A DNA stretch of 64,000 bases from an uncultured Desulfobacter sp. (GTDB taxonomy: Bacteria > Desulfobacterota > Desulfobacteria > Desulfobacterales > Desulfobacteraceae), in NCBI RefSeq assembly GCF_963665355.1, contig NZ_OY762229.1, positions 434,001-498,000 on the forward strand, written 5' to 3'. Below the pieces are notes generated by a model. The model was given only the letters and a program-made list of their open reading frames with translations, searched no databases and was not told where the DNA came from. Every line of letters starts with the position of its first letter. The stretch's first letter is position 1. The position numbers and the translations under genes are program-made. Of the stretch, positions 7,432-52,244 are shown one piece after another.

Positions 7432-8188
7432 GTTGTCGCGCCGAGGAAAGCTCGGCGCATCTTGCAGGGTGAAAGTCCCTGTCGGGTGAAATTCAGTAAG
7501 GGTTTTCAGTAAGGGTTGGCCACCCACCCGTATCGAGCCTTGGACCCATGGCGGAGATATTTCGGCTATTGTAAGTTAGGACGTCAAGGGAAATTGACTG
7601 GAAACGAGCTGTGCCCGGAACCCCGGATACAAGCGCAGATGGACTCACCCAACTGAAAGAGCAATAAAAGGGTATTGAACAAAAATGGGTTAAGCGTAGG
7701 CAGAGAATCCTGTAGGCCGTAGGGGAGACCGCGCTCCCTGAAGTGCTGGTACAGCTTCGAAAGAGCAACTTGTGGACGCCGAGGGTTTTAGCGGTCACCG
7801 AAGGCTACACAGAAGCATCCGTTAAAGGCAAGGGTGTGGAGGTCCGCCGGAGTCAACAGGTCGTCGCAAGGCGGCTATATGCCATTGGGGTGTCTTATCA
7901 GGCATAGTACTCAGAGGTCTGGAAAGCCGGCCACACGGATGCGTAAACCATGCATGCAAGGGAAAGGACCTGACGGAAGGGCGCAGCCCACAAAGGAAAC
8001 TCGTGCCGGACATGTAGGGCTGGATAACACGAGCCAACCTCACTGCGGGGAATAGCAACTGGATCTTGTAACGGGTAACTGTGAAGATCCGCGCGGAAGC
8101 GAGTCTAACCGAAGAACCGGATGCGGGAAAACCGCACGTCCGGGACTGTGCGGGGGGCGCTGGGTGACCGGCGTTCCTACCGCGAGAT
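7432..8188 (+). mobile_element. Group II intron without ORF (intron C)
   Basis: About 755 bases of intron RNA. The start resembles group II 5' ends (GTCGCGCCGAGG with a pairing CTCGGCGC), followed by the GGGTGAAAGTCCC element at 7469-7481. Domain V is at about 8114-8145 (ACCGGATGCGG with CCGCACGTCCGGG) and a domain VI stem ends in CCTACCGCGAG near 8186. No reverse transcriptase is encoded. Its 3' half is shared with the partial copy at 3773-3928. Confidence 0.75.
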
Positions 8189-8239
8189 AAATATAGGCGG
8201 TCCGTTGCAAGTGGTCCGGCTTAATTTTTTGATTATTCA

Positions 8240-8692
8240 TCATGATCCGCTTCCCTGGTTTGATTTGTTTTTTTCAAGTAGACGCATTTGCTGACAAGAC
8301 GTGATAGTACGGTTATGATTTTTTTCTTCTGTTGAAGATTGAGACTGTTCCAGATTTCTTGAGTTTTCTGCTCCTCCTGATCGGGCCAAAGTTCCAATTG
8401 CTTTTGCATGAGTATGTCCCTCCTTTAAAGCGATTTCAGATTGCTGCTTTGGAGGATATATTTTCAGGAGAAGGGTATCTACTATCTTCCGTACCTTTAG
8501 TAAGTTCGATCTTGAGGCAATTAGATCCGTCTGTTTCCGGTTGTCTGGTGGTTTGAATTGGGGGCAAATGTCACCCAGATTTGTCCAATCAGCAGGTATA
8601 TAGAATCTCGTGCCATCAGGTAAAACCAGGGTCAAATGTAAAATCCCATTTCTGTGAAGCCAACTGAGGACATCAAGGGCTTTTCCCTCCAA
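8240..8692 (-). CDS. DUF5372-like protein, 5' end probably interrupted by intron D
   Basis: Residues 1-85 resemble the small DUF5372 proteins found beside transposases: LHPLEGKALDVLSWLHRNG, then LVLPDGTRFYIPADWTNL, then a helical LLKVRKIVDTLLL. The C-terminal 50 residues are polar and low in conservation. Only a TTG is available at 8692; the frame stays open upstream (VTITKNLHPLEG) to about 8750, where intron D begins on the other strand, so the real start may have been displaced. Function unknown; a transposition accessory is the usual context. Confidence 0.5.
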   Translation of the reverse strand: MEGKALDVLSWLHRNGILHLTLVLPDGTRFYIPADWTNLGDICPQFKPPDNRKQTDLIASRSNLLKVRKIVDTLLLKIYPPKQQSEIALKEGHTHAKAIGTLARSGGAENSRNLEQSQSSTEEKNHNRTITSCQQMRLLEKNKSNQGSGS

Positions 8693-8749
8693 TGGATGAA
8701 GATTTTTTGTTATCGTTACTTTAGGCGGAAAACCGTCGAGGTGGGTAGT

Positions 8750-10222
8750 CTGTCGTGTGTTCCTTTAGAATTTCAATACATTTGGCAAGTCTTAAACCCA
8801 GCCTGATGGAGGCGAAGGGTGTAGTGGTATGGCAACGGGGTACCGGTGACGATACTTCGGAAGGAAGCCGTCCTGCCGAGGCAGGGCACCACAAAAGTAC
8901 GGGGTGACCAACAGAAATCGGGTATGAGGCGCATACACCGGGACGAGCCTGCACAACAAGGTAAAGTCCTCTATCCATTATAGGGTGTATCCGTAAACCC
9001 GGCATCCACGTACTGAAAGGCATGTGTTTACCCCGGGAGGTCTCCCATGTGCCGGTAAAACGGCTGAAGGCCGGGCAACCGACCTTGACCGCATGGGAGA
9101 AGTCAGCAGAAGGTATAGTAGCCGGTGGAAACGAGCTCCACAAAGGCGGGGAGGTCTCACCCCGGTAAAGGCCTGAACGGTGCCTGGGCTGAATGGCCCG
9201 GGTAAATGATAACGACAAATAGGAGGTGTGTACTTGTGAACAGACGGCCACAGCAGATGGAATTTTTCCCAGCGTCACAGATTGCCGAAAGTCTGGGAAA
9301 CAACGACCGGTTAATGGAGATGATCCTTGAACGCAACAACATTATCCAGGCATGGAAACAGGTTTGTGCGAATAAAGGTGCCCCCGGGGTAGACGGTATG
9401 AAAACCAGTCAACTCGGGAACTACCTGGCAAAGCACTGGCCTGAAATTGAGCCAGACCTGCTTAACTGCAGGTATAAACCGTTGCCGGTGAAGCGCAAGG
9501 AAATCCCCAAACCGGATGGTGGTGCCCGTTTACTGGGAATCCCCACGGTGCTGGACCGGTTTATCCAGCAAGCCATATCCCCGATTCTGGAACAGGTATG
9601 GGAATCCTTTTTCTCTGAATGCAATTATGGATTCAGACCCGGCAGATCCGCCCACGATGCGGTGATACAGGGCAAAGAGTATATGGTTGAAGGTTATACC
9701 TATGTGGTCGACATGGATCTTTTTAATCAACTTTCATGAAAGGATGTGCAGTATGACGATGGCTCCATTGATTATCGACATTACCCAGCCCGAAAGGGAG
9801 CTGACGTCCGGCGGGTGTGACTACAGACACACCCGGGCAGGTGTTTCTTTGCGAGAAAGTTTGGAAAATCTTTGAGGAGGGGAAAGCAAATAACGGCAAT
9901 AGCTGGTGCGCCCATCAGCAGTTTTATGCGGTTAAAAAAATGTAGATGCGTATCGCAAAGGTTGTTGAACAGCAACACAGCATACACATCCGAAGGCATA
10001 TTTCAAAAGTATGTATATTCTTTTGACCCGGAAAAAGAACAGTACTTTCCGGTTAAATGCTTACGGAAGTATGCTATGAAATAACTGTAAATTTCATTAT
10101 TGCTAAAACAACCGGGCTGCCCCGCAAGGCTTAGCCTTAGAAATGCTTGAGCCGTATGACGGGAAACTGTCACGTACGGTTCTGAGGGGGGAAAGGGATT
10201 GAAAAATCCCTGACCTACCCGA
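8750..10222 (+). mobile_element. Group II intron D with truncated reverse transcriptase
   Basis: Intron RNA begins near 8750 and includes long stem-loops of domain I to about 9200. An ORF starting at 9236 encodes the first part of a reverse transcriptase. Domain V is at 10149-10182 (GAGCCGTATGACGG with CTGTCACGTACGG) and domain VI ends in TGACCTACCCGAT near 10222. The ORF is cut at 9723, and the 360 bases from there to about 10090 are not recognisable as intron-protein coding sequence. The element cannot make its own protein. Confidence 0.75.
9236..9739 (+). pseudogene. ltrA: Group II intron reverse transcriptase/maturase, C-terminally truncated
   Basis: The GTG at 9236 follows AGGAGG by 9 bases. 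167 residues cover RT motifs 0 to 3: WKQVCANKGAPGVDGM, then KPDGGARLLGIPTVLDR, then the conserved NYGFRPGRSAHDA, ending in YVVDMDL where intact proteins continue into the motif with the first catalytic Asp. The YADD active site, the maturase (X) domain and the HNH endonuclease are absent. The product would be inactive as a polymerase. Confidence 0.85.
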
Positions 10223-10247
10223 TCTTCTAAAACCCCACGATTTTGAT

Positions 10248-39218: not shown

Positions 39219-40466
39219 TCACAGGGATTTTGCGTTTTCAACACGATGATTAATGGCAACAGCATAATGATCAGATATTTTCCGCATCCATTTCATGGAT
39301 AATCCCCAATGCCCGGGCTTTATACCCATCATGGCATGCCACCTGTTCAAGGGCTTTTCGGGCCGTAGCCCTGTCCCCGGCCCGACAGCGCAAAGGCCGT
39401 GTAAAAACAGGGAATTGATATCATTATGATCCAGGCCGCTTGCTTTTCCAAAGGCCTGGGCAGCCGGCCTATACTCTTTGTGCTCATAATGGATCCAGCC
39501 TTTAATCCGCCAGAGACGGCAGGACAGGGGAAAGGCTTCCAGACCTTTTTGGACTGCCTTGAGCGCCTTGTCATAATCACGGGCTTCAAACCAGCAGGCC
39601 GCAGTCCGTTCCCAGAGTCCGCAACAGGGGTGGGCTGTGACGAGGACCTGATAATTATCGGCAGCCAGGGCCGGTATGCCTAAATTGGCATAAAGATCTG
39701 CCAGAAGTTTTCGCTCCTGCCGGTTCAGGGTTTCAATCAGACCGTAGGCTTCCAGGTTTTGGGCCGCTTTCCGGTAATCGGCCAGGTCCAGGTACAGGCC
39801 CGAAGCCAGACGGAACAGATATGCCTTTGGATCAGGCTGCCCTAAAAGCCGCTCCACTGTTTTCAGTGCTGTTTGGGGCTGTTTCTCGGCCATGGAGATC
39901 TGAACAAAAAGCTTCACCCATTTATCTTCAGGAGGGCCGGCCTTTCCCGAACATAGATCAGCCAGTATGGGCAGTGCTTTCTGTTCTTCCTTTCCTGACA
40001 GATAGGCTGCAGCCGCCTGGAACCGCAACAGATGATTTTTTCGGCCGGTCAGATCCCACGCCTTTTCCAGGGCCATACCGGCCCTGTTATAAAATTTTAA
40101 GTCAAAGCAGACCTTGGCCAGATTCTGCCAGGCCGGGGCATAGACCGGACAGAAATCAATTGTTTTTTCGTACTGCTTCAGGGCGGATTCAAGTTTATCC
40201 AAGTCCAGGTAACAGGCGGCCAGGGTATATGTCACAAAGGCATGGTTTTCATCCGGGTTCTGGCTGACAAACTGGGTTAAAATTTTTCCGGCCTGGGTCA
40301 TTTTTTTTTCAGTGATCAGCTTCTGGGCTTCCGCCAGGGCAGTTTTGGCCTTTGGGGTTAAACTCTTTTCATCCGGGCATGGACCGGTGGAAGATGCCTG
40401 GGCACACACCTGGGACACACATAAAAAAAATACAAGCACACACATTGAAATAAAATATCGTCTCAT
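39219..40466 (-). CDS. Secreted TPR protein of the TonB operon
   Basis: 415 residues with a signal peptide (hydrophobic residues 5-22, AQA cleavage site) and eight or more tetratricopeptide-like repeats (for example ALKQYEKTIDFCPVYAPAWQNLAK and AAQAFGKASGLDHNDIN). Last gene of the DUF3450-ExbB-ExbB-ExbD-TonB-TPR cluster, starting 2 bp after tonB. Role likely as a periplasmic scaffold for the energy-transducing complex; no enzymatic domain is seen. Confidence 0.75.
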   Translation of the reverse strand: MRRYFISMCVLVFFLCVSQVCAQASSTGPCPDEKSLTPKAKTALAEAQKLITEKKMTQAGKILTQFVSQNPDENHAFVTYTLAACYLDLDKLESALKQYEKTIDFCPVYAPAWQNLAKVCFDLKFYNRAGMALEKAWDLTGRKNHLLRFQAAAAYLSGKEEQKALPILADLCSGKAGPPEDKWVKLFVQISMAEKQPQTALKTVERLLGQPDPKAYLFRLASGLYLDLADYRKAAQNLEAYGLIETLNRQERKLLADLYANLGIPALAADNYQVLVTAHPCCGLWERTAACWFEARDYDKALKAVQKGLEAFPLSCRLWRIKGWIHYEHKEYRPAAQAFGKASGLDHNDINSLFLHGLCAVGPGTGLRPEKPLNRWHAMMGIKPGHWGLSMKWMRKISDHYAVAINHRVENAKSL

Positions 40467-40468
40467 GG

Positions 40469-41155
40469 CTATTTCTCCAATTGAAAAACCACAGAAGTGG
40501 TAACCAGCGTCGCCACCTTTCTGCCCATAAGTTCGCCCGGTGCATATTTCCACGCAGACACGGCATCCAGGACCGCCTCTTCAAAGAATCCCGGGGGATT
40601 TGCTTCCAAAATTTTGACGTCTGACACATTGCCGTCTTTGTCCACCAGAAACCGAATCTTAACGGTTCCCTCCCGTCCCATACGCTTGGCCCGGTAAGGA
40701 TACCGGGGAGCGGCCTTATACCGGGGCACAGGAATGGTATCCACGGCATCAAGATCCATCACAGCATTGAAATCCGGACCGGTTGCCGCCACAGGCCCGT
40801 GGGTTGCCTGTGCAACCATGGGAATGCCGCCGGCAAGCCGTGGATCAATATCCAGATCCAGGCTGGGCAGTTCCATCTTTAACTGCTGTTTGGGTACGTT
40901 TAAATTTTCATGGTGAACAATATTATGAATCTTTTCTGGTTTTTTTTCTTCTTCAGCTTCCTCTTTTTTCTTGGGCTCCGGCTGGAGCGGCTGGGGTTTA
41001 AACCGTGTAAAGGTCACCACATTGAGGCTTTCCAAATCCCCGGAACGGGTATCCATATGAATCATGCCGGGCAAAAGCCCGAACAGGGCCAGGTTAATGA
41101 TCAGGGCTCCTAAAGCGCCCTGGAGCAGATACGACTGTTGATAGGACAGTTTCAT
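40469..41155 (-). CDS. tonB: TonB energy-transducing protein
   Basis: 228 residues: one N-terminal membrane helix (LQGALGALIINLALFGLL), a Pro/Glu/Lys-rich periplasmic spacer (KPQPLQPEPKKKEEAEEEKK), and the C-terminal TonB domain (PRYPYRAKRMGREGTVKIRF, VKILEANPPGFFEEAVLDAV, WKYAP). It carries inner-membrane proton energy to outer-membrane receptors. Overlaps exbD by 4 bases. Confidence 0.9.
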   Translation of the reverse strand: MKLSYQQSYLLQGALGALIINLALFGLLPGMIHMDTRSGDLESLNVVTFTRFKPQPLQPEPKKKEEAEEEKKPEKIHNIVHHENLNVPKQQLKMELPSLDLDIDPRLAGGIPMVAQATHGPVAATGPDFNAVMDLDAVDTIPVPRYKAAPRYPYRAKRMGREGTVKIRFLVDKDGNVSDVKILEANPPGFFEEAVLDAVSAWKYAPGELMGRKVATLVTTSVVFQLEK

Positions 41156-41577
41156 AAACCCGAGTCACCCGTCCTGGTGGCGGCAATGCTCACCCGTTTG
41201 GCACCGGCCAGCCGACACTGGTCCATCACCTGTATCACCTTGCCCGTGTAGCTGACCTTGTCTGCCACAATCACCACAGCCCCTTCGGGATTCTGGGCCA
41301 AGGCCCGGGTAATATGGGCTCTGACGCTTCTGACATCAATCTTTTGCCCGTCAAAATGAATAGTGCCTTCCTGGGACACGGCCACAAGAATATTGCCGTT
41401 TTCCGTCAATGTGGCGGATGAGGCGGATGGCCGCTGGACATCAATGCCTGTTTCCCTGACAAAACTTGTGGTCACCATAAAAAAAATCAGCAGCAGAAAA
41501 ACCAGATCAATGAGAGGACTCATGTTGATATCCATCTCATTGCTTTTCATGCGCAAAGAATTTCTCACATTGATCAT
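41152..41577 (-). CDS. exbD: ExbD/TolR-type biopolymer transport protein
   Basis: 141 residues. A short cytoplasmic start, then the transmembrane helix with the functional Asp (MSPLIDLVFLLLIFFMVTT), then a periplasmic domain ending TRTGDSGL. The ATG at 41577 is chosen because AAGGAG is 9 bases upstream; a GTG at 41586 is too close to it. Confidence 0.88.
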   Translation of the reverse strand: MINVRNSLRMKSNEMDINMSPLIDLVFLLLIFFMVTTSFVRETGIDVQRPSASSATLTENGNILVAVSQEGTIHFDGQKIDVRSVRAHITRALAQNPEGAVVIVADKVSYTGKVIQVMDQCRLAGAKRVSIAATRTGDSGL

Positions 41578-41594
41578 TAAGTTCACTCTCCTTT

Positions 41595-42206
41595 TTACAG
41601 CCTTCTTTTAAGAATAATAGCCGCCTCTTCCAGACGATTTTTGGCCCCATGGGAACGCCTGAAGAGCAACGCGCTCATGAAGAACCCGGGGATGGATACC
41701 ACAAGGCCGCTTTGGGTTGTTACAAGGGCTTCGGAAATACCGCCGGCCATGGCTTTGGCATTGCCCGTACCAAACAGGGTAATGACATCAAAGGTGGTAA
41801 TCATGCCGGTGACGGTGCCCAGAAGACCGAACAGAGGCGCCACAGCCGCAAAAACGGCAATGGCGGCAAGGTGCCTCTCAAATCCCGGAATCATGGCCAT
41901 GCAGCACTGATCCACAACCCGTTTATTTACCTGGTGATCGTCGCTCCGATGGGCCAGGACATGGCTGACAAGATTGGTCCTGGGCCCTTTTGCCCCGGCC
42001 GGCAACAGGCATTTGGAGGCAGGATCTTTATCCAGGATTCTGACCAGGGCATGAAGGGCAATGTCTTTGCGCTCCAGGCGGGAGAAGAAAAGCATCCGCT
42101 CCAGGATCAGGGTCCACATGGCAAAGGAGCACAGTATCAAAGGAATCATGACAGTACCGCCCTGGCTCAGGTAGGCGATAATATCTGCGAAAAGATGGGA
42201 ATTCAT
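41595..42206 (-). CDS. exbB: MotA/TolQ/ExbB proton-channel family protein
   Basis: 203 residues, three membrane helices. ExbB signatures: GGTVMIPLILCSFAMWTLILER, then ATVAP-type block AIAVFAAVAPLFGLLGTVTGMI, and GGISEALVTTQSGLVVSIPGF. Forms the stator-like channel with ExbD. Overlaps the long ExbB gene by 4 bases. Confidence 0.88.
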   Translation of the reverse strand: MNSHLFADIIAYLSQGGTVMIPLILCSFAMWTLILERMLFFSRLERKDIALHALVRILDKDPASKCLLPAGAKGPRTNLVSHVLAHRSDDHQVNKRVVDQCCMAMIPGFERHLAAIAVFAAVAPLFGLLGTVTGMITTFDVITLFGTGNAKAMAGGISEALVTTQSGLVVSIPGFFMSALLFRRSHGAKNRLEEAAIILKRRL

Positions 42207-43612
42207 GCCTGTCTTGTTCCCCTGAATACAATATTGGTCAATGCCACGGCTTTTTCTTCCATATCGCCGATCACATGGGCCACCCGGCGGCATAGGAACG
42301 TATACAAAAGCATGATGGGAATCGCTACGGCCAGGCCGAGCATGGTCGTCACCAGGGCCGTGGAAATGCCGCCGGACATCATCCGGGGATCACCTGTTCC
42401 ATACAGGGTAATGACATGAAAGGTTGAAATCATGCCCGTCACCGTACCCAGAAGGCCTAGAAGCGGAGAGATGGCCCCCATGATATTGAGCATGGGTAAA
42501 AACCGCTCAAGCCTGGGCAGCTCTTTCAAAATAGACTCCTGAAGCACACTTTCCAGGGTTTCCCGGTTCTCCGTTCTGGCATTGAGCCCTGCCCGGAGCA
42601 CGTTGTACACCGGAACCGTTTCCCTGCCCACAATCTTTTGGCAGTCATCCCAGGCCCCCTGGGCCGCCAGATCATTTACCCGGCCCATGACCTTGTCTGT
42701 ATTGGCATGAACCCGTCCCAAAAACAGGGTGCGTTCAATGCCGATGGCGATGGCGAATACGCCCAGCGCCAGGATCGGCCACACCAGGGCGCCGCCCTTT
42801 TCAATCTGGTCCTTCAGGGTCTGCTGGTGGGTGATCTGTTTGAGCGCCCCACCCCGGGAGATATCAATGTAAACGGTATTTGTATTCCCGTTCATATAAC
42901 CGGACAAATTCTTCTGAATCCCCATAGAGGGCAGTGCCGAGAGCGCATACAGCTTTTTTGTATCCTGGGAATATTCAAGAAAGCCGGCCTTTCCATCCTT
43001 TTCATAGGCCCAGGTAAATCCGCCCAGGCTCAAAACCCGTCCTTCGACCGTTTCCCCAGCATCTGAAATAAAGGGCATGGTCCGGATATCAATACCGCCG
43101 GTAAGGCTCATCTCTTCTAAAAACAGCTCGGCCAGTGCGTCCATGTCGTCCAGCCCCGGAAACCGGCTGGACTCCAAAACAGGGGAGAGGCGACTTAAGC
43201 GTCCAGGTTCCCGGGCCGTATATGCGCTGGCTGCCAGCAGGGCATTGAGATTACCGGCAGCCACCCTTACGGCACCGGACAGTTCATTGAGCCGGGTCTG
43301 GCGTGCCCCTGTTTTTTCATCCAGTCGTGCATTTTCCAGAACCAGCGCCTCCACTTGCCGGGATTTTTCCTGAACTTCACCCTCAAGCGCGGCAACCCGG
43401 GCCTTTAAACGGGTGAGTTCCTGGGACATCCGGGTTTTGTCCGCCTGGATCTGGGAGCGTACGGCAAGGTCCTTTTTGCGGGACTCTTCCAGTTGCTTCT
43501 GGGCTTCAACCGCAGCCTGGCGCAGGTCCCTGGCCTGGACTGTTCCGGTTAAAACAGTCAACACCATTATAGAAATGATCAATTCTGATATTACGTCTGT
43601 AAAAAATTTCAT
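42203..43612 (-). CDS. Long MotA/TolQ/ExbB protein with periplasmic coiled coil
   Basis: 469 residues. Signal peptide (IISIMVLTVLTGTVQA), a coiled coil from about 30 to 115 (EAQKQLEESRKKDLAVRSQ ... VEALVLENARLDEKT), a beta-type middle domain (about 125-265), then a full ExbB-type channel domain (about 280-460; IMGAISPLLGLLGTVTGMI, SGGISTALVTTMLGLAVAI). Duplicated ExbB with an extended N-terminus is a feature of this six-gene TonB cluster. It probably organises the complex in the periplasm. Overlaps the DUF3450 gene by 4 bases. Confidence 0.85.
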   Translation of the reverse strand: MKFFTDVISELIISIMVLTVLTGTVQARDLRQAAVEAQKQLEESRKKDLAVRSQIQADKTRMSQELTRLKARVAALEGEVQEKSRQVEALVLENARLDEKTGARQTRLNELSGAVRVAAGNLNALLAASAYTAREPGRLSRLSPVLESSRFPGLDDMDALAELFLEEMSLTGGIDIRTMPFISDAGETVEGRVLSLGGFTWAYEKDGKAGFLEYSQDTKKLYALSALPSMGIQKNLSGYMNGNTNTVYIDISRGGALKQITHQQTLKDQIEKGGALVWPILALGVFAIAIGIERTLFLGRVHANTDKVMGRVNDLAAQGAWDDCQKIVGRETVPVYNVLRAGLNARTENRETLESVLQESILKELPRLERFLPMLNIMGAISPLLGLLGTVTGMISTFHVITLYGTGDPRMMSGGISTALVTTMLGLAVAIPIMLLYTFLCRRVAHVIGDMEEKAVALTNIVFRGTRQA

Positions 43613-44421
43613 TGTGCAGCAATCCTTCCCAGCGGAAGCTTGACAAGTTCAATGCTTCTCTCAAGGCGGGCCATGGATATGGCCCGGGCAATATCGCGGT
43701 TAACGCCTTCGGGCAATACCTGCCAGACTTTCCGGCACGGATCAAACACCGCGCTCTTTTTCCGGTCAATGGTCTGGCACAAAAGGCTGACCCGGCCCAC
43801 CCGGAGCAGATCCACAAGCACCGGCACCTGGTCCAGTGCCACGGTGGTCTGGATGACCTCCACGGTGATGCCGTATTCCGCCTCAATCTGAAGTGCCTCA
43901 AATATACGCCTGAACTTCTCGGCAGAAGAAGTCTGGGGGTCCACCATCATCATTTTCAAATCTGCCATACGGCCCCGACGCTCTTCCTCCAGGAAGGGCA
44001 GATCTGCGGTAATGGCCGAATCCAGACGTGAAAGCACTGAATCCAGAAAAACCTCCAGCTCGGCTTCCACCCGGTCGATCTCTTTTTCCCGCCTGAAATT
44101 CTCATCCAGGCGGGCCTGTTCCAGTTTCAGACGCAGGTTGATTTTCTCCAGATGCTTTTCCTGTTGCGCGACTCGGGCTGTCAGGGCCTGTAACTCATCA
44201 GCCATGGCCTTTGACTGCCCAGACCAGTCCACCCTCATATCCTGGACATCTTTTTCCACCTTGATGGCCTGGCCGAGATCTTCCCTGATCACTGTGCTTA
44301 ATATTTTTTCGCCGGCAAGTACGGCATCTGGCGAAAAATAAGGCTGGCTGAACAGCACGGCCAAAAAAACAATCCAATTGAATCCATACAATTTTAAAAT
44401 CTCCTTTATACGCCTCAACAC
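43609..44421 (-). CDS. DUF3450 periplasmic coiled-coil protein
   Basis: 270 residues with a signal peptide (FNWIVFLAVLFSQPYF) and a long coiled coil (QALTARVAQQEKHLEKINL ... AEVEAELEVFLDSVL), followed by FEALQIEAEYGITVEV. This matches the DUF3450 family, always found upstream of ExbB/ExbD/TonB genes. First gene of the operon; start preceded by AAGGAG. Thought to support the TonB system; no enzymatic role known. Confidence 0.8.
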   Translation of the reverse strand: MLRRIKEILKLYGFNWIVFLAVLFSQPYFSPDAVLAGEKILSTVIREDLGQAIKVEKDVQDMRVDWSGQSKAMADELQALTARVAQQEKHLEKINLRLKLEQARLDENFRREKEIDRVEAELEVFLDSVLSRLDSAITADLPFLEEERRGRMADLKMMMVDPQTSSAEKFRRIFEALQIEAEYGITVEVIQTTVALDQVPVLVDLLRVGRVSLLCQTIDRKKSAVFDPCRKVWQVLPEGVNRDIARAISMARLERSIELVKLPLGRIAAQ

Positions 44422-44514
44422 ACATTAACTATTTGATTTTTAAAGACACCCATACGCCGGCTATGCACAGGCCGCTCTTTTAAGAAAATCTATATATCTG
44501 AAAAAATATTAAGT

Positions 44515-44536
44515 CGCAACTAAAAAAATAGTTACG
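44515..44536. promoter_or_regulatory. Inverted repeat in the divergent hutW/TonB promoter region
   Basis: CGCAACTA (44515-44522) and TAGTTACG (44529-44536) form a dyad with one mismatch around AAAAAA, in the 280-bp AT-rich space between two oppositely directed operons. It does not match a Fur box. A shared operator is a reasonable guess. Confidence 0.35.
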
Positions 44537-44584
44537 AGCATTTAATTTTTACTCCGCATTATAAATTAAAACTTCACAATAAAT

Positions 44585-44613
44585 TTGACTTGACTTAATA
44601 AATAGTTTGCAAT
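44585..44613 (+). promoter_or_regulatory. Possible promoter of the hutW operon
   Basis: TTGACT (44585-44590), 17 bases, TGCAAT (44608-44613); the -10 is weak. The start codon is 88 bp further on. Confidence 0.35.
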
Positions 44614-44700
44614 ACATGACTTTCGAGGCGCCTTGGAACAGGAAAACTAAAAACGTGCCCATTCAACTACATCCCCAAGAAAAGGAGGTTGGTCCCCACC

Positions 44701-46095
44701 ATGACACAGGAAATCAGCACCGCCCGCCGTGACGCCAACGCCAAGCTTAAACTGATGGAAACCTTTGGCGCCACCTCTTTTGACCGTCCTTATTTTGCCG
44801 AAATCTGCGATAACCCGCTCACCGGCGCATTTAGGAAAAAAGCCGTGGTACATGCAGGAATAGAAGGCACTGCCGTGCCCCAGGAAGTGACGGCCAATGT
44901 ATGGCAAACCCTGTCCAAGACACAACGCCGGGGCAAAACCAGCGCATATATCCACATTCCCTTTTGCAGCACCCACTGCCTTTATTGCGGTTTTTTTGCC
45001 AACCCGGCCCAAAAAGATAAGATGCAGGCTTATGCCAAAGCCCTGGTCCGGGAACTTGAAGGGGACCGGGATCTGGATCTTGTGCAAAGCTACCCCGTAA
45101 ATGCCGTCTATCTGGGCGGCGGCACCCCCACAGCCCTGGAAAGCAGCGATCTGAAACGCGTGCTTGATACCGTGCGCCGCTGCCTTCCCCTGGCCAATGA
45201 CTGTGAAATTACCGTGGAAGGCAGGATCAGTGATCTTTCGCAGGAAAAAATCCAAGCCTGTATCGACGGCGGCGCCAACCGGTTTTCCATCGGGGTCCAG
45301 ACCTTTGATACCGGCATCCGGACAGGCCTGGGCCGGGTGGCAGGCAGGGAAACGACCATGGAACGTCTTTCAGACCTTAAACAGACCAATCATGCAGCCA
45401 TCATCATTGATCTGATCTTCGGGCTGCCCGACCAGACCATGGAGACCTGGGAAAAGGACATTGACTCCTTTCTGGATCTTGAACTGGACGGTGTGGACCT
45501 GTATCAGCTGATCCGCTTCCCCGGCGGCAGCCTTGACAAGGCAGCCAGGTCCGGGCGGTTCAAAACCCTGGCAGACCAGACCCAGCGGGCCCTGATGTTT
45601 GAAGCGGGCGTGAACCGCATGGCCCGGGCCAGATATCAAAGACTGTCCATCAGCCACTGGGGTCGAAAATTTCGGGAGCGCAACCGTTACAACCTGGCCA
45701 TGAAGGAAAAGACAGACTGCCTGGCCTATGGTTCCGGGGCCGGCGGTACTGTGAACGGCCATTTGGTTTTTCTTAACGGCAATCTTGACGCCTACCTTGA
45801 AACAGCGGGAAAAACCAAACCCGTGGCACGCATCATGACCCCATCGCCCCATGCAGACCTGATCGCCCTGATTTCAGGCAGCCTGGAACTGGGGCATATG
45901 GATCTGCGAAGTGCCGGCAGTCGGCTGGGCCTGGACCTTGAAACCATCTTTTCCCCCTTGACGGAACAGTGGGAAAGGGCCGGACTTATTACACGGGAAC
46001 AGGGCTGGATTACCCTGACCCTGGCCGGACAGTTCTGGCAGACCAACCTGGCCCAGGGCATGATTGACTATTATAAACAACCAAGTAGCACATAA
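44701..46095 (+). CDS. hutW: HutW/ChuW-family radical SAM enzyme (anaerobic heme degradation)
   Basis: 464 residues. The radical SAM motif is CSTHCLYCGF (Cys-x3-Cys-x2-Cys) after AYIHIPF. Family-specific strings match ChuW/HutW rather than HemN/HemW: CEITVEGRISDLS, GANRFSIGVQTF, LDGVDLYQLIRFPGG, SISHWGRKFRERNRYN and LAYGSGAGGTVNGH. In ChuW the enzyme opens heme without oxygen and methylates it, releasing iron and giving anaerobilin. ATG 44701 has AAGGAGG upstream. It heads an operon with an ECF transporter, flavodoxin and a TonB receptor, which is the physiological context expected for heme use. Confidence 0.85.
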   Translation: MTQEISTARRDANAKLKLMETFGATSFDRPYFAEICDNPLTGAFRKKAVVHAGIEGTAVPQEVTANVWQTLSKTQRRGKTSAYIHIPFCSTHCLYCGFFANPAQKDKMQAYAKALVRELEGDRDLDLVQSYPVNAVYLGGGTPTALESSDLKRVLDTVRRCLPLANDCEITVEGRISDLSQEKIQACIDGGANRFSIGVQTFDTGIRTGLGRVAGRETTMERLSDLKQTNHAAIIIDLIFGLPDQTMETWEKDIDSFLDLELDGVDLYQLIRFPGGSLDKAARSGRFKTLADQTQRALMFEAGVNRMARARYQRLSISHWGRKFRERNRYNLAMKEKTDCLAYGSGAGGTVNGHLVFLNGNLDAYLETAGKTKPVARIMTPSPHADLIALISGSLELGHMDLRSAGSRLGLDLETIFSPLTEQWERAGLITREQGWITLTLAGQFWQTNLAQGMIDYYKQPSST

Positions 46096-46098
46096 ACC

Positions 46099-46644
46099 AT
46101 GAAACTGTTTTCATCAGATTACTGGACCCCTTCCGAACTTATCCTCATCGGCACCTTCACAGGACTGATTAAAATTTCGACTCTGCTCATTGCCCTGGCC
46201 GGCGGCGGCATGAACCCGGTGACCCTTGTGCTTAAAAACACCGTGGCCACATCCCTGCTCCTCATCCTGGTATACAAAATCAGAAAATTCGGTATCCTTA
46301 CCCTGTTTTCAGTGATTAACAGCCTGGTGTCTCTGCTGCTCATGGGCGGCAATCCCATGAGCATTGCAGGGGTAATTGTTTCAGGTATTGTGTGCGATCT
46401 TTTCATTGCACCATGGCAGGGATTTCAAAAGCCCATACGCCTGATCATTGGCATTGCACTGTTTGATTTTCTATCCCGGGTAATTTCCCTTGGCTATGCC
46501 TATTTTCTGTACCAGGAGCAGATGGGAATGTTTGTCATGGCGGCGGTGGTGGTGGGATTGGGCTATTTGGGATGCTTCATGGGTCTGGGTACGGGCATTA
46601 TATTTGTCAGGGAGCTGCGTCATGCCGGCATTATCCGCGAGTAA
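46099..46644 (+). CDS. ECF-type transporter substrate-binding membrane component (S)
   Basis: 181 residues with about five or six membrane helices (ELILIGTFTGLIKISTLLIALA ... SIAGVIVSGIVCDLFI ... GLGYLGCFMGLGTGIIF). The length, topology and place before T and A components make it an S component. It resembles the MptS-like group, whose ligands are poorly known. In this operon heme or a breakdown product is the natural candidate. Begins 3 bp after hutW and overlaps the T gene by 23 bases. Confidence 0.65.
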   Translation: MKLFSSDYWTPSELILIGTFTGLIKISTLLIALAGGGMNPVTLVLKNTVATSLLLILVYKIRKFGILTLFSVINSLVSLLLMGGNPMSIAGVIVSGIVCDLFIAPWQGFQKPIRLIIGIALFDFLSRVISLGYAYFLYQEQMGMFVMAAVVVGLGYLGCFMGLGTGIIFVRELRHAGIIRE

Positions 46645-47356
46645 TCCAGCAGATCATCTGGATATACGGACCCGGATACTGATCTGCCTGATCTGTTCAG
46701 CAGGCATCCTCTTTATCCAGGCCGCTATAGCCCTTGGGATTCTGGCCCTGGTCAGCCTTGTCTATGCCCTGGCCCATGGCCGTATCAGGGTCCTGGCCGT
46801 GGCATGGTGCGGCGTGGGCATCCTGTTCGTCATTGCCATGGGATGTGTCCGCATCATGCTGATATTCTGGCCCGAGATAGGCCAGGCCGGCCTGGGCGCA
46901 TTTTTCAACCCGTTTCTTCGGATACTGATTTTGGTGAACACAATTTTTGCCCTGGCTGTGTCCAGCCGGATCCAGGATGTGATGACCAGCCTGAAAACCC
47001 TTGGCCTGCCCTTTGTCATCTATCTGCCGGCATCGGTGATGGTCCGGTTTATCCCTGAATTTATCAATGATGTCAAACTGATCCGTGAAAGCATGCGGAT
47101 CAAAGGGTTTCATCCGGGTATCCAGTTTGTCACCCTCCACCCATTCCTGGTTGTCCGTCTTCTTGTGGTGCCGTTGACCATCCGTGCCTTACGCTCGGCA
47201 GACACCCTGGCCGTGGCTGCAGAACTTAAGGGAATGGATGCAAGCACCCCCATGACAAAAACACCGTCAACCTGGCCCGGGGCCTGGGACATTATTGTGA
47301 CGGCCTGTGTGCTGGTACTCACTTTTGGCAGCATTGCCGTGGAGAAATTGCTGTGA
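46622..47356 (+). CDS. ECF transporter T component (CbiQ-like permease)
   Basis: 244 residues: four or five membrane helices and the two coupling segments typical of EcfT, here KTLGLPFVIYLPASVMVRFIP and RESMRIKGFHP, with a later LRSADTLAVAAELKGM (the Ala-Arg-Gly-like coupling signature in degenerate form). The ATG at 46622 lies inside the end of the S gene, preceded by GGGAG. Binds the ATPase pair and the S unit. Confidence 0.8.
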   Translation: MPALSASNPADHLDIRTRILICLICSAGILFIQAAIALGILALVSLVYALAHGRIRVLAVAWCGVGILFVIAMGCVRIMLIFWPEIGQAGLGAFFNPFLRILILVNTIFALAVSSRIQDVMTSLKTLGLPFVIYLPASVMVRFIPEFINDVKLIRESMRIKGFHPGIQFVTLHPFLVVRLLVVPLTIRALRSADTLAVAAELKGMDASTPMTKTPSTWPGAWDIIVTACVLVLTFGSIAVEKLL

Positions 47357-48759
47357 TTGAATTTGACAAGGTCTCTTATACCTACCCGTTCCAGGACAAA
47401 CCTGCGGTAACCGATATCTCATTTTCTGTTTCCAAAGCAGAAGCAGTGGTCTGTACCGGGGCCAGCGGATCAGGAAAATCCACGCTGATACGCCTGATCA
47501 ACGGCCTTGCCCCCCATTTTCACAAGGGAACGCTTTCCGGGCGGGTCCGGGTGGCAGGAAAGCAGACCGTTGAAACCCATGTCAAGGCGCTGTCATCCCA
47601 TGTGGGCACCATGTTCCAGGACCCGGAAAACCAGTTTTTTGCGCTCAGGGTCAGGGATGAGCTCAAGTTTGCCCTGGAATGCCGAGGCAGATCCGTTGAA
47701 GAGATTGAAAAGGTCACCCTTCAGGAGGCAGACAGATTGGGCATCACCCCGCTTCTGGACAACATGATTTTTGACCTGTCCCAGGGGGAAAAACAGAGAG
47801 TGGCCCTGGCCGGGATCATGTGCATCGCCCCGAATATCATTATCCTGGATGAACCCTCGGCCAATCTTGATCCCCAAGCGACAACGGAACTGGCCGGACA
47901 CCTCATGGAACTGAAACGCCGGGGCATCACCTTATTCATCGTGGATCACAGGCTTTATTGGCTGAAAGATCTTGTTGATAAGGCTCTTGTCCTGGACCAG
48001 GGGCGTCTGGTCTGCCAGGGAAAATTTGAATTGTTGCATGATCCCGGCATACGCAGCAAGTTCGGCTTAAGAAAACCGGAAGTTGTTGCCCCGAACCTTC
48101 CGGAAGCCCAGATTTATGCATCCGGCCAGGACAATGCAGCCCATTGCATTGATGTGGAAAACCTCACCTTCGGGTATAAAAAAAAGCCGCTGCTTTGGAA
48201 TGATGCATCATTTAAGCTGCCCATGGGCCAGGTGGTTGCCGTCACAGGCGCCAACGGGACAGGAAAAACCACCCTGGCCCGGCTTCTGACAGGTCTTTTG
48301 CCGCTTAAAACCGGCACCATCCGCATCAACGGGAAAGCCCTTCGGCCAAAGGATCTGCTGGCCCGGGGCAGTATTGTGCTGCAAAACACAGATCATCAGC
48401 TTCACATGAAAACCGTATGCCGGGAACTTGCCATTGCGGCCCGGAACAATCCGGACCGGGAGTGTGCCGTGGCCGATGTCACGGCACGTTTCGGTCTGGA
48501 TTCGTTTTCTGCCCGCCATCCCCAATCCCTGTCCGGGGGCCAGAAACAGCGGCTTGTCATTGCCGCAGCCCTGGTAAAAGCCCCGGATATCCTGATTCTG
48601 GACGAACCCACCAGCGGTCTGGACGGCACCAACATGAACATGATTGCAAGGGTGATGACCGGCATGGCCCATAAAGGGGCCATGGTTCTGGTGATCACCC
48701 ATGACCTTGAACTCATGGGCCTGGCCTGCGACTGTGCCCTATCTATGCCATTATCATAA
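47353..48759 (+). CDS. ECF transporter ATPase, two ABC domains in one chain
   Basis: 468 residues from GTG 47353 (4-base overlap). First domain: Walker A TGASGSGKSTLIRL, signature LSQGEKQRVALAG, Walker B IIILDEPSANLD, H-loop VDHRLYWL. Second: Walker A TGANGTGKTTLARL, signature LSGGQKQRLVIAA, Walker B LILDEPTSGLD, H-loop ITHDLELM. Both sites look catalytically complete. EcfA1 and EcfA2 are usually separate; here they are fused, as in YkoD-like systems. Confidence 0.9.
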   Translation: MIEFDKVSYTYPFQDKPAVTDISFSVSKAEAVVCTGASGSGKSTLIRLINGLAPHFHKGTLSGRVRVAGKQTVETHVKALSSHVGTMFQDPENQFFALRVRDELKFALECRGRSVEEIEKVTLQEADRLGITPLLDNMIFDLSQGEKQRVALAGIMCIAPNIIILDEPSANLDPQATTELAGHLMELKRRGITLFIVDHRLYWLKDLVDKALVLDQGRLVCQGKFELLHDPGIRSKFGLRKPEVVAPNLPEAQIYASGQDNAAHCIDVENLTFGYKKKPLLWNDASFKLPMGQVVAVTGANGTGKTTLARLLTGLLPLKTGTIRINGKALRPKDLLARGSIVLQNTDHQLHMKTVCRELAIAARNNPDRECAVADVTARFGLDSFSARHPQSLSGGQKQRLVIAAALVKAPDILILDEPTSGLDGTNMNMIARVMTGMAHKGAMVLVITHDLELMGLACDCALSMPLS

Positions 48760-48774
48760 CAAGGAGAAAAAACA

Positions 48775-49317
48775 GTGAAATCCCTGGTTGTTTATTCCAG
48801 CAGAACCGGCAATACCCTAAAAGTTGCCCAGACCATATATGACGCTTTGCCCGAACCCAAAGAAATTTTTCCCGCCAAAGAGGCCCCGGATCCGTCCGGG
48901 TATGATTTTCTGGCCCTGGGCTTCTGGGTGGATAAGGGCACGGTGAATTCCGAGACCGCCCAATACATGGAAACAGTAACCGGTAAAAAAATCGGAGTGT
49001 TCGGCACCCTGGGCGCCTATCCCGACTCCGACCATGCCAGACAGTGCCTGCAAAAAGCAAGACAGCTTGTAAAGGACAATGAAATCCTGGGGGAATTCCT
49101 GTGCCAGGGCAAGGTGGATCCGGACCTGGTTAAAATGATGGAAACAAAGATGAAGGACGATCCCCATCACAGTATGACCCCGGAGCGTAAGGCAAGGCTT
49201 GAGGAGGCTGCCAAACATCCGGATGAAAAAGATCTGGCTGACGCCCGGGCACTGTTTTCTGAACTGGCACGGATAGCTATGGGGAAAAGCCTGCCTGATG
49301 CGCCGGATAATCAATAA
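48775..49317 (+). CDS. Flavodoxin family protein
   Basis: 180 residues from GTG 48775 (AAGGAG 9 bases upstream). N-terminal FMN loop SRTGNT in LVVYSSRTGNTLKVAQ, then FLALGFWVDKGTVNS and IGVFGTLGAYPDSDH. The C-terminal 60 residues (DPHHSMTPERKARLEE) are an extension beyond a plain flavodoxin. Flavodoxin-like proteins accompany HutW-type enzymes in other anaerobes, serving as electron donor or bilin reductase. Position in this operon supports such a role. Confidence 0.75.
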   Translation: MKSLVVYSSRTGNTLKVAQTIYDALPEPKEIFPAKEAPDPSGYDFLALGFWVDKGTVNSETAQYMETVTGKKIGVFGTLGAYPDSDHARQCLQKARQLVKDNEILGEFLCQGKVDPDLVKMMETKMKDDPHHSMTPERKARLEEAAKHPDEKDLADARALFSELARIAMGKSLPDAPDNQ

Positions 49318-49324
49318 AGGGCTT

Positions 49325-49448
49325 CCAACACAACAGGAATTGGGGAATCGGACCAGAACAGAATCTGAACAGTGACCCATTAAACAGCTAAAAGTTGGAA
49401 AGGCAGGCACATACCTTGGCCGGCAAACCTGCCTTTCCGTGGTTAAAA
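49325..49448 (+). promoter_or_regulatory. Structured leader before the TonB-dependent receptor (B12-box-like end)
   Basis: The spacer after flavodoxin ends in a perfect 11-bp stem (49397-49407 and 49438-49448). Its 3' side reads GGCCGGCAAACCTGCC, resembling the cobalamin riboswitch B12 box (GCC-AGGAGACCTGCC). Upstream, GGGGAATCGG ... GAATCTGAACAGTGACCC is faintly like the riboswitch core. The stem lacks a U-tract. It may be a terminator-type hairpin, a riboswitch or neither. Confidence 0.3.
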
Positions 49449-49557
49449 CCCGTTGAAAAACAGGTAAACGTTTTTGCGTACCAGATCCAAGGCAGGGCGT
49501 CAAGCGCCTGTTATGGAATTCTTGCGTCCGCAGATCAAAGAAAGGACTAAAATAAAG

Positions 49558-51450
49558 ATGTGGAAAAAAATTTTTACAGTGATCGCGGTGGTGGCCATTA
49601 CAGGGGCAGGCAATGCACCGGCTGCAGACACATCAGACATCTCAGCCGTGGAAAACAAAATGGTGATCACGGCAAAATCCAACCAGGCAGACCATGACAT
49701 ACCGGCCTCATCAACCATCATAACATCCCAGCAGATCATCTCCTCCAATGCATCATCCATCAAGGATGTGCTTATTGAACAGGCCGGAATTGATTTTGGT
49801 GTCAACAATTCATCCGTCTACGGACGAGGGAATATCAGCATCCGGGGTTCAGCCACAGGTCACGTCTTGGTTCTGGTGGACGGTAAAAAAGTGTCCGGTT
49901 CCGATGCCCAGATCGGCCATACGGATTTCGAATACAACTGGGTGCCCATGGGCTCCATTGACCGTATAGAAGTGATCAAGGGACCCATGAGTTCAATTTA
50001 CGGCTCCCAGGCCATTGGCGGCGTTGTCAACATCATCACCAAAAAGAGCAGTAAAAAATTTTACGGGGATATTGATGCCCAATATGGTGACAGCAGTGAT
50101 GACGGCGGCGATGAATACAAACTGGGTCTGAATATCGGCGGCAGGATTGCAGACCAGGTCTCACTGTTCGTGGGTGCGGAGCATAGTGACCGGGACCCGT
50201 CAAGGGACGAGGATGACAACACTGAAACAAAAATCGAAGGCAAAAAAATCAACAACGGGTTTGCAAAAATCCAGCTTGACATAGACAAATCCCAGTATAT
50301 TGAGGCCTCCTATGGCCAGGGCAACGAAGACCGTCTCAAGGTCGATGATCTGCTTTACTACGACATTGACCGGAAAAACTACGCGGTGGGATACAGCAAA
50401 CAATTCAGTTCCGTCACCCTGGACCTTGACGCCTATGCCACAGATTCTGATATGCATTACAACACCGAAAGTGCAACGGGCGGCTACACCCACAGCATGA
50501 CGGACTCCGTAATCCGGGGTGAAGTGGATATCGCTGCCCTTAAATCCAACTATATCGTGACAGGAGCTGAATTCAAAAATCAGGATTATGAAAAAAACTA
50601 TGACAAAGCGGCAAATGCTGATAACAACTTTGCCAATGACCTGGACAACACCTCGGTGTTTCTCCAGGACGAAATCAATATCGGAAAAGCGTTTATTCTC
50701 ACCCTGGGGACCCGGTACGATTACCATGAAAAATTTCATGGTGAATGGTCGCCAAAGATTGGGGTACTTTATAAACTTGCGGAACACCACAGGGTAAGAG
50801 CCAATTACGGTGAAGGGTTTATGGCCCCCACAGTGACCCAGAACTCGTCATCCTATGCGGCCACAGCCATGAAAACCACCATCTACGGAAACAACGATCT
50901 TCAGCCTGAGACGTCAAAATCCTTTGAACTGGGATATGAATTTTTCACAGACACCACGGTGTTCAAGGCAACGGTTTACAAAACAGATGTGGATAATCTG
51001 ATTGACACTGAATACCTGGCCGGATCTTCCAATGAAAAAATGTATGTCAATGTGGACAGTGCAACCATCCAGGGGTTTGAATGTGAATTGTCCCAGGATG
51101 TCACACAAAACTTCAACATCCGCGTCGGGTACCACTACCTGGACACCGAAAATGATTTAACTGGGCAGGATCTGACCTACCGCCCCAGACATAGCGTCAA
51201 TATTGGGCTCAACGCAACTCTGCCATGGGACATCCATGCCACAGTGAATGCCGATTACACCGGCGAGCAGACCGACGGCACAGATGAATTCGATGATTTC
51301 ATTGTCTTCAACGCCCATGTTTCCAAAACGTTATATGATAGAATTACAATTCGTTTAGGGGTGGATAATATCAGCGACGAAGACTTGGACGACGAACCCT
51401 ATGATATTGAAGGCAGAGTCGTTTATGCCGGCGTGAACTTCAGATTTTAG
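49558..51450 (+). CDS. TonB-dependent outer-membrane receptor
   Basis: 631 residues. Signal peptide (FTVIAVVAITGAGNAPAA), a TonB-box-like NKMVITAKS, a plug domain (IKDVLIEQAGIDFG, SIRGSATGHVLVLVDG, GSIDRIEVIKGPMSSIYGSQ, GGVVNIITKKS) and a 22-strand barrel ending in Phe (YAGVNFRF). The barrel-start and size are like BtuB/CirA/heme receptors. The ligand is not fixed: heme fits the operon, cobalamin would fit a B12-type leader. Start 49558 is chosen to place the signal peptide at the N-terminus. Confidence 0.85.
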   Translation: MWKKIFTVIAVVAITGAGNAPAADTSDISAVENKMVITAKSNQADHDIPASSTIITSQQIISSNASSIKDVLIEQAGIDFGVNNSSVYGRGNISIRGSATGHVLVLVDGKKVSGSDAQIGHTDFEYNWVPMGSIDRIEVIKGPMSSIYGSQAIGGVVNIITKKSSKKFYGDIDAQYGDSSDDGGDEYKLGLNIGGRIADQVSLFVGAEHSDRDPSRDEDDNTETKIEGKKINNGFAKIQLDIDKSQYIEASYGQGNEDRLKVDDLLYYDIDRKNYAVGYSKQFSSVTLDLDAYATDSDMHYNTESATGGYTHSMTDSVIRGEVDIAALKSNYIVTGAEFKNQDYEKNYDKAANADNNFANDLDNTSVFLQDEINIGKAFILTLGTRYDYHEKFHGEWSPKIGVLYKLAEHHRVRANYGEGFMAPTVTQNSSSYAATAMKTTIYGNNDLQPETSKSFELGYEFFTDTTVFKATVYKTDVDNLIDTEYLAGSSNEKMYVNVDSATIQGFECELSQDVTQNFNIRVGYHYLDTENDLTGQDLTYRPRHSVNIGLNATLPWDIHATVNADYTGEQTDGTDEFDDFIVFNAHVSKTLYDRITIRLGVDNISDEDLDDEPYDIEGRVVYAGVNFRF

Positions 51451-51525: not shown

Positions 51526-51764
51526 CTGGCTATGGTGTCTGGCTATGGTCAGTTGTGTCCGGTTCTCTTGCCCGGACTGTCGGATGAAAAATTTGCATGC
51601 CCCAATTTGCACGCCAACGTTTGCACCAAAGTTAACTTAGGATGGCGCGACGGTATTTGAATCCAGGCAAAGCGTCAAAAATTGATTCTCAGTTCATTGC
51701 CATGGTGATATATGTTCAGATACATCATAAAAGAAGAACAAACGAGCCCATAAAGGAACTTTAC

Positions 51765-52244
51765 ATGCAAATAACCTACATCGGCACAATACAGACACCG
51801 TTTGAAGATCGCGAAGGCATGCCAATTCAGCCCACCGGCGCCAAAGATGTTCAGGGCCGGATTATCATTCACCCGGAGTACGAACAGGGCCTGTCGGACA
51901 TTGACGGATTTTCCCATCTGATCCTGCTCTACCATTTTCACCAGTCCAGGGGATTTGACCTTATGCTCACCCCTTTTATGGATACCCAACCACGGGGACT
52001 GTTCTCCACCCGGGCGCCCCGGCGTCCCAACCCCATAGGTCTGTCCATTGTCCGCCTGGTCGCGAGAAAAGGAAACACCCTTGATATTCTGGATATTGAT
52101 GTTTTGAACAACACTCCGCTCATCGACATTAAGCCTTATGTAGCGGGATTTGATGCCAAAACTGAAAATGTCCGGGCCGGGTGGCTGGAAGAAAACCAGA
52201 TCAAAGCCCAAACCATGACCTCAGACAGCAGGTTTATATCCTGA
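51765..52244 (+). CDS. trmO: TrmO/TsaA-family tRNA methyltransferase
   Basis: 159 residues. TsaA beta-barrel motifs: YIGTIQTPFEDREGMPIQP, the SAM-binding DGFSHLILLYHFHQS, and FSTRAPRRPNPIGLSIVRLV. In E. coli TrmO adds a methyl group to t6A37 of tRNA-Thr; short anaerobe forms like this may instead act on other targets. AAAGGA lies 7 bases before ATG 51765. It is monocistronic. Confidence 0.85.
   Translation: MQITYIGTIQTPFEDREGMPIQPTGAKDVQGRIIIHPEYEQGLSDIDGFSHLILLYHFHQSRGFDLMLTPFMDTQPRGLFSTRAPRRPNPIGLSIVRLVARKGNTLDILDIDVLNNTPLIDIKPYVAGFDAKTENVRAGWLEENQIKAQTMTSDSRFIS

Follow-up and report, generated by a model that had tools for sequence, protein, structure and literature searches.

A candidate anaerobic heme-iron acquisition locus in Desulfobacter that joins a TonB system, an ECF transporter and HutW

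Introduction

LhaSTA of Staphylococcus lugdunensis is a published energy-coupling factor (ECF) transporter for heme that raises cytosolic iron from heme, and the published heme-binding S units of staphylococci, streptococci and L. sakei show remarkably low mutual sequence similarity (PMC7299338). Here we analyze a 64,000-nucleotide stretch (the window) from an uncultured Desulfobacter sp. (NCBI RefSeq assembly GCF_963665355.1, contig NZ_OY762229.1, positions 434,001 to 498,000, forward strand), in which positions 39219 to 51450 very probably hold a complete locus for anaerobic acquisition of heme iron; gene identities, layout and conservation were computed, and the heme ligand is drawn from context. 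As in LhaSTA, an ECF importer with S, T and A parts lies within a heme-iron locus, and the two differ in that LhaSTA comes from a Gram-positive bacterium, belongs to an isd locus and has one A gene where a fused AA' stands here, the likeness being one of description. Published systems are cited throughout from excerpts of the papers named.

HutW is usually accompanied by a classical heme importer, whose place the ECF unit takes here. HmuTUV of Fusobacterium nucleatum is an importer of the binding-protein-dependent type. Its cluster, hmuTRUVWF, resembles the window locus in bringing a HutW orthologue and a heme-binding flavodoxin, HmuF, into one heme uptake cluster, and it differs in the importer, which is HmuTUV there and an ECF transporter here (PMC10404700). 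In Vibrio cholerae hutWXZ and Escherichia coli chu, HutW goes with HutX, as in many relatives of the window locus, whereas HutZ or ChuY stands alongside and the excerpts mention no ECF unit (PMC12670364). In Enterococcus, the HutW orthologue lies outside any operon (PMC12077173). The TonB2 operon of Vibrio vulnificus has six genes, with ttpB2 first, upstream of ttpC2, and the tetratricopeptide repeat (TPR) gene ttpD2 last, after tonB2 (PMC6957404). By gene order and domains it resembles the six-gene TonB operon of the window, with first and last proteins of 255 and 425 amino acids there and 270 and 416 here; a difference is that TtpB2 and TtpD2 are needed there for siderophore uptake (PMC6957404).

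In its excerpted text, a 2025 review on heme in pathogens contains the term ECF once only, in a sigma-factor reference (PMC12670364). Among the open-literature matches listed, no paper connects heme import by an ECF transporter with HutW in Gram-negative bacteria, or TonB, ECF and HutW with one another, a weak negative because it covers only those matches and subscription papers fall mostly outside it. Nor did those matches yield a ligand experiment on this S family.

Results

An earlier note on this DNA had described a six-gene TonB operon divergent from hutW, an ECF S-T-AA' unit, a flavodoxin gene and a TonB-dependent receptor gene, and we recovered all twelve genes in that order and on those strands, as a minus-strand TonB-energizing operon (44421 down to 39219) and a plus-strand heme set (44701 to 51450). 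The heme set opens with hutW (44701 to 46095, +), whose start we place at the ATG preceded by a Shine-Dalgarno-like AGGAGG rather than at 44689. Its product was assigned as a HutW/ChuW anaerobic heme-degrading radical S-adenosylmethionine (SAM) enzyme, with 502.6 bits against TIGR04107 (curated cut-off, 400), and HemW, the next best model, gave 170.6, under its own cut-off of 205.4. The radical SAM motif CX3CX2C appears as CSTHCLYC at residue 89, and by analogy with characterized relatives the enzyme would open heme without oxygen. The plus strand continues with the ECF S component, a candidate heme-binding unit (46099 to 46644), the T component (46622 to 47356), the AA' ATPase (47353 to 48759), the flavodoxin (48775 to 49317) and the receptor (49558 to 51450, start putative). 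Spacing from hutW to the flavodoxin gene is tight: hutW and S are three bases apart, AA' overlaps the stop codon of T, and the flavodoxin gene follows AA' after 15 bases. The T gene likely starts at 46622, within the S gene.

We scanned the contigs of one genome per species (84,980 species) with an S alignment (A2) and kept the best 80 of 81 relatives. HutW was found in the retrieved stretch of 71 of these 80 S loci and in all 47 in which S is flanked by 5 kb or more on both sides, while the nine loci without it reach only 218 to 2417 bases upstream of S. The threshold in this count, 120 bits, lies under the best HemW-type score (153), and 70 of the 71 proteins score at least 216, which is the lowest value among the 47 full loci; the other, at a contig edge (L088), scores 141. 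One HutW from Kiritimatiellae reaches 385 against the TIGR04107 cut-off of 400. T and AA' accompany S in all 47 full loci, a flavodoxin in 42, a TonB receptor in 41, ExbB/TolQ in 30 and HutX in 28. The order S-T-AA' is kept in 77 of the 80 relatives, and the commonest arrangement (21/80) contains the order hutW, receptor, S, T, AA', hutX, fld (the flavodoxin gene), exbB/tolQ, exbD. Carriers include Desulfobacterota, Sutterellaceae, Succinivibrionaceae, Mucispirillum and other Deferribacterota, together with Kiritimatiellota, Verrucomicrobiota, Lentisphaerota, a planctomycete and a Cloacimonadota genome; because many of them are closely related, the 80 loci are not independent events. Desulfocicer vacuolatum, of the same family as the window's genome, had seemed to provide an S without HutW (L045, the same record as L068), a candidate that we rejected when wider stretches showed HutW across its TonB operon.

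The earlier note had proposed looking for the unit beside hutW in other Desulfobacterota genomes, and it was found there. In a phylum sample of 297 genomes, the window's own included, HutW scored above its cut-off in 14, and the S model matched eight genomes at E 0.001. Five of these matches are strong (E 1.0e-63 or better) and all fall among the 14 HutW genomes, and the three weak S-like matches (3.3e-9, 5.3e-6 and 1.6e-4) come from genomes outside the 14. With kinship ignored, the chance of all five strong-S genomes lying among the HutW genomes is about 1e-7; two of the five belong to one genus, and the S model held rows from four of them besides the window. The S scan and the presence/absence table rule out a chance neighborhood. 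In one of the other nine HutW genomes (G156; L056, 10560 to 11129), a 190-residue S-like protein with 18% identity to the window S lies beside HutW, flavodoxin-like, T-like and AA'-like genes and has no Pfam or NCBIfam match; it is possibly part of a second, unrelated ECF/HutW pairing.

A HutW tree shows six changes of ECF label across 91 rows and is silent on prevalence, because its rows were collected via S or via HutW. Open reading frames (ORFs) under 350 amino acids or 200 bits were left out of it, as were a fragment in L068 and the duplicate records L045 (of L068), L053 (of L061), L058 (of L117) and L059 (of L136), and in four of its rows (L049, L051, L054, L057) the ECF genes are possibly missing only through contig ends. 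Two Sutterella loci (L114 and L115) have a second, more distant HutW-like gene near the first, at 192 and 197 bits to the window HutW.

Within the genus, a search with the window S alone covered 18 mates, some of them incomplete, and found S in five; HutW is present in eight, all five S mates included. The genes hutW and fld are adjacent in G303, G313 and G314 and at a second site of G306, and the stretches fetched around these four sites contain no S, T, AA', receptor, TonB or FecCD gene (that of G303 stops some 240 bases past fld). In five genomes, the window's and those of four mates, S-T-AA' separates hutW from fld, the start of the fld leader being kept on the far side, and a neighboring gene is common to three empty and two filled sites, which suggests that both kinds share one chromosomal place. 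In G306, no more than about 60 residues of fld are seen at the ECF copy, and the other hutW is the one with a full-length fld beside it. All six genus loci with the ECF unit have the receptor and five of the six have the TonB operon; neither was seen at the four loci without it. This joint presence and absence of S-T-AA' and the receptor around hutW-fld means that the importer acts as an optional addition to a hutW-fld core, and gain and loss cannot be told apart from the genus loci.

The same loci bear on the idea that the system serves turnover or detoxification of endogenous heme, with import incidental and hutW-fld working without a transporter. The four genus stretches in which hutW-fld lacks ECF and FecCD genes would fit it, as would several other phylum genomes that have HutW, weaker flavodoxin neighbors and no ECF matches. 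We nevertheless hold it to be extremely improbable as an account of the window locus, given that the receptor (6/6) and the TonB operon (5/6) come with the ECF unit and that neither was seen at the four loci that lack it.

The S protein passes the PF09605 (Trep_Strep) gathering cut-off (33.4 against 28.7), and three relatives score 31.4, 45.3 and 29.8. Its description in the earlier note as MptS-like holds at the level of this family and is otherwise loose, as the NCBIfam MptD model, TIGR02185, gives 17.8, far under its cut-off of 76.45. At E 0.1, Pfam and NCBIfam yielded only PF09605 and the weak TIGR02185 match, with no cobalamin, biotin or queuosine S family; grouping with such units in an unconserved hutW neighborhood was the outcome named in advance as speaking against a heme role, and what we found is neither, the neighborhood being conserved. 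A structure model of S (85 sequences, alignment A3) has six helices with a mean pLDDT (predicted local distance difference test) of 81, and its best fold match in the PDB is the S component 5edl (probability 1.00, template modeling score 0.63, E 4.7e-3), which we take to be YkoE, a thiamin-related S unit. Unrelated membrane proteins with lower probabilities take ranks 2 to 4, ahead of TmRibU in fifth place (probability 0.97). All matches of this fold search were weaker than E 0.001, and the S sequence matched no S component when searched against the PDB.

The T protein belongs to the CbiQ family (PF02361, 58.1 bits, cut-off 25), and AA' is a single chain of 468 amino acids with two ATP-binding cassette (ABC) domains, each with Walker A, signature and Walker B motifs. 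A single-chain dual-domain ATPase had been pointed out as a peculiarity of the locus; the single chain is confirmed, and its weight as a peculiarity is less than had been written. Single-chain dual ATPases are unremarkable among ECF systems. A PF02361 T protein and two PF00005 stretches beside a six-helix S give the layout of a dedicated (group I) ECF transporter.

Ten S columns are identical across the 85 rows, seven of them at or adjoining three loops (G35, G36, G37, N39 and P40, with M38 in 81 rows; G83; E140). Position 139, adjoining E140, is R in 82 rows and Q in the window, and further fixed positions lie within helix 6 (G158, G162, E172 and A176). Judged from known S units, an N terminus on the inner side would put the three loops on the outward face. 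The sole histidine conserved in most S rows (74/84) is His175, where helix 6 is predicted to end on the inner side.

These data could also be read as an ECF unit that imports an unrelated micronutrient (a corrinoid, metal or vitamin) and lies near hutW through shared iron or anaerobic regulation: PF09605 has no named substrate in the libraries searched, T matches the cobalt CbiQ family, and the best fold match of S is 5edl. We consider this very unlikely in view of HutW in all 47 full loci and in all five strong-S phylum genomes, the placement of S-T-AA' between hutW and fld, and the lack of any riboswitch or named vitamin or metal S-family match in our searches. Riboswitch searches of the window at gathering thresholds, and of positions 44300 to 49700 at E 1, found none; a permissive match to a small nucleolar RNA model (E 0.16, 25.9 bits against a gathering score of 100) was taken as chance. 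An importer of cobalamin, thiamin or another vitamin was disfavored because of the missing family matches and riboswitch.

The window's genome has a second PF09605 protein elsewhere (C2:2881612-2882001, L001), with T-like and ABC ATPase homologues nearby, perhaps another ECF importer. Directly upstream of the S gene of D. vacuolatum (L068, 8895 to 9866) lies a periplasmic-binding-protein match (PF01497, 26.6 against a cut-off of 27.5). A binding protein beside an ECF S unit is unusual.

The flavodoxin-like gene listed in the earlier note is present, and its product is not an ordinary flavodoxin. Among PDB sequences, only 8g64 matches it strongly (E 1.8e-23, query residues 1 to 155); this entry is the heme-bound FldH of F. 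nucleatum, in which His134 is the proximal ligand and residues 116 to 150 form a cap; FldH and HmuF bind heme and flavin mononucleotide, carry heme to HmuW and reduce anaerobilin (PMC10404700). The homology spans the flavodoxin core and the helical cap. His132 of the window protein aligns to the ligand His134, His89, His150 and Pro151 are matched too, and the propionate partner Lys92 of FldH is Gln in the window. Among 70 orthologues, His132 is aligned in 52 (exceptions are mostly Sutterellaceae), His148 in 65 and Pro149 in 68; this set keeps the duplicates L058/L117 and L059/L136 and leaves out ORFs below 60 bits and those of L045 and L053. The BilS model NF045594 scores 115.3, under its cut-off of 155. 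The protein is better read as a heme carrier and reductase of FldH/HmuF type, and thus a candidate anaerobilin reductase, than as an ordinary flavodoxin. In D. vacuolatum (L152, 7839 to 10340), an HmuF-type flavodoxin runs in frame, with no stop, into a TonB-dependent receptor (834 amino acids, with an internal signal-like stretch), an ORF that may be a real fusion, contain an internal start or reflect a sequence error.

In many relatives, a gene between AA' and fld encodes HutX, the three tested scoring 175.9, 142.7 and 143.3 against the TIGR04108 cut-off of 110. This cytosolic heme carrier family was detected by tblastn in 44 of 100 loci (a set with four records present twice). As background, a class-wide sample of 274 genomes gave seven HutX matches at E 0.001 and one above the cut-off; a known HutX carrier, G351 (Succinivibrio), scored 93.5 in that search, under the cut-off. 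A FecCD-type permease, searched with eight permeases of the window's genome (tblastn, E 1e-6), occurs in one of the 100 loci. In Duodenibacillus massiliensis (L138, 13614 to 14978), a 455-residue ORF lies between hutX and fld, presumably an IscB/HNH-type mobile-element protein from its resemblance to these.

HutX in relatives and the FldH/HmuF-type flavodoxin add support for heme, and with the conserved hutW neighborhood they back the proposal of the earlier note that the ligand is heme or a related tetrapyrrole. The cargo might instead be some other tetrapyrrole, whether iron-coproporphyrin, a further metalloporphyrin or a bilin, that is processed by HutW or the flavodoxin, heme being one of several substrates or not the true one. 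Reported ligands of ChuW include cobalt, zinc and metal-free protoporphyrins (PMC12670364), the flavodoxin resembles the BilS model below its cut-off, and the receptor is not heme-type by score. Against these stand the 44 of 100 loci with the HutX heme carrier family and the alignment of the flavodoxin with a heme-bound structure, ligand histidine included, and we judge this reading unlikely.

The receptor has the colicin I receptor as its best PDB match (E 9.5e-62) and is CirA-like. Two Desulfuromusa loci have a relative with 56% identity upstream of HutW and S, which ties the receptor to the system, though not to heme. A histidine between the FMAP and NNDL motifs is a sign of heme receptors; of 69 receptors scanned, 53 show this motif pair, with a histidine between the motifs in 22 of them.

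The minus-strand operon is of a known kind, matching the published Vibrio TonB2 operon in gene order and domains, with the ttpB and ttpC positions first and tonB followed by the TPR gene last. It encodes a DUF3450 protein, TtpB-like by position (43609 to 44421; PF11932, 201.6 bits, cut-off 32.6), a TolQ/ExbB protein with a long N-terminal part, named TtpC-like from its position (42203 to 43612; PF01618, 112.6 bits), ExbB (41595 to 42206; PF01618, 87.3 bits, cut-off 22.9), ExbD (41152 to 41586; PF02472, 107.3 bits, cut-off 25.4), TonB (40469 to 41155; PF03544, 77.2 bits, cut-off 24.6) and a TPR protein, TtpD-like by position (39219 to 40466), which matches TPR families in Pfam as the last protein of the Vibrio operon, TtpD2, is likewise a TPR protein. 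The TPR gene probably starts near 40466 instead of 40553, and the N-terminal half of the TtpC-like protein has a DUF3450 match (22.5) below the cut-off of 32.6. Vibrio TtpB2 is presumably a DUF3450 protein as well, and we assume the order exbB-exbD in Vibrio TonB2.

The divergent intergenic region (44422 to 44700) was studied with an alignment of six genus loci and a consensus scan. A stretch of the cttgac..aataaatagttt type is kept in the six species and by eye looks like a sigma-70 promoter. Downstream of the receptor, the next gene matches TrmO, a tRNA methyltransferase (51642 to 52244, +; PF01980, 132.9 bits), and marks the edge of the locus. Group II intron domains at 2718 to 3558 and 7641 to 10223 (+; two D1D4-6, one D1D4-3 and two Intron_gpII matches) suggest at least two group II introns within the first 10 kb of the window.

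Discussion

Several results weigh against a heme import locus. Of the nine other HutW genomes in the phylum sample, eight have no ECF matches in the fetched stretch, some of these being short contigs. HutX is absent from all seven genomes searched of the genus and family, the window's included, and 11 FecCD matches elsewhere in the window's own genome mean that classical heme import is possible there. Four of the 11 A2 rows came from loci found through HutW, so the S scan could lean towards HutW loci. By sequence, the receptor cannot be clearly assigned to the heme receptors: it scores 215.3 against the TonB-hemin model TIGR01785 (cut-off, 316.85), scores best with CirA-type models, reaches the cut-off of none of the NCBIfam models listed and lacks a histidine between FMAP and NNDL. 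The gap between hutW and the DUF3450 gene contains no E. coli-type Fur box, the best seven sites (13/19) in the 14 kb scanned lying elsewhere. On its predicted outer side, S has no conserved histidine, whereas the spectra of LhaS suggest histidine coordination of heme (PMC7299338); if S binds heme, the ligand is therefore probably not an outer-side histidine.

With these points weighed, we infer heme as the ligand of S and of the receptor, together with the direction of flow and the hand-over steps, and take the activities from characterized relatives. In the route that we propose, the TonB2-like six-gene complex would energize the TonB-dependent receptor to move heme across the outer membrane, and the S component would bind it in the inner membrane, where the dedicated T and AA' would drive import. 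The HmuF-type flavodoxin, with HutX in many relatives, would receive heme in the cytosol and pass it to HutW, which would open the ring by radical SAM chemistry to give Fe2+ and anaerobilin, and the flavodoxin may then reduce the anaerobilin.

We also consider it reasonably probable, with less confidence than for the window locus itself, that a distinct family of heme S components, recognizable by a nearly invariant GGGMNP loop and the lack of a conserved histidine on the outer side, marks out a widespread TonB-ECF-HutW route for heme import and oxygen-independent opening in many anaerobic Gram-negative bacteria, including the gut genera Sutterella, Parasutterella, Bilophila, Mailhella, Desulfovibrio and Mucispirillum. 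In this family, heme would be held via Met38, via Tyr156 or with no protein ligand, unlike in LhaS, from which it is set apart by description.

If this is true, an S-component family that carries no substrate in the libraries searched would gain one, and heme import by ECF transporters would be extended from Gram-positive bacteria to Gram-negative anaerobes of several phyla. It would also name the inner-membrane step for HutW where the locus shows no classical importer. Several carriers are gut bacteria, and in the gut there is competition for the iron of heme that comes from diet and bleeding. The hutW-fld pairs with and without the importer inside one genus would offer a natural comparison.

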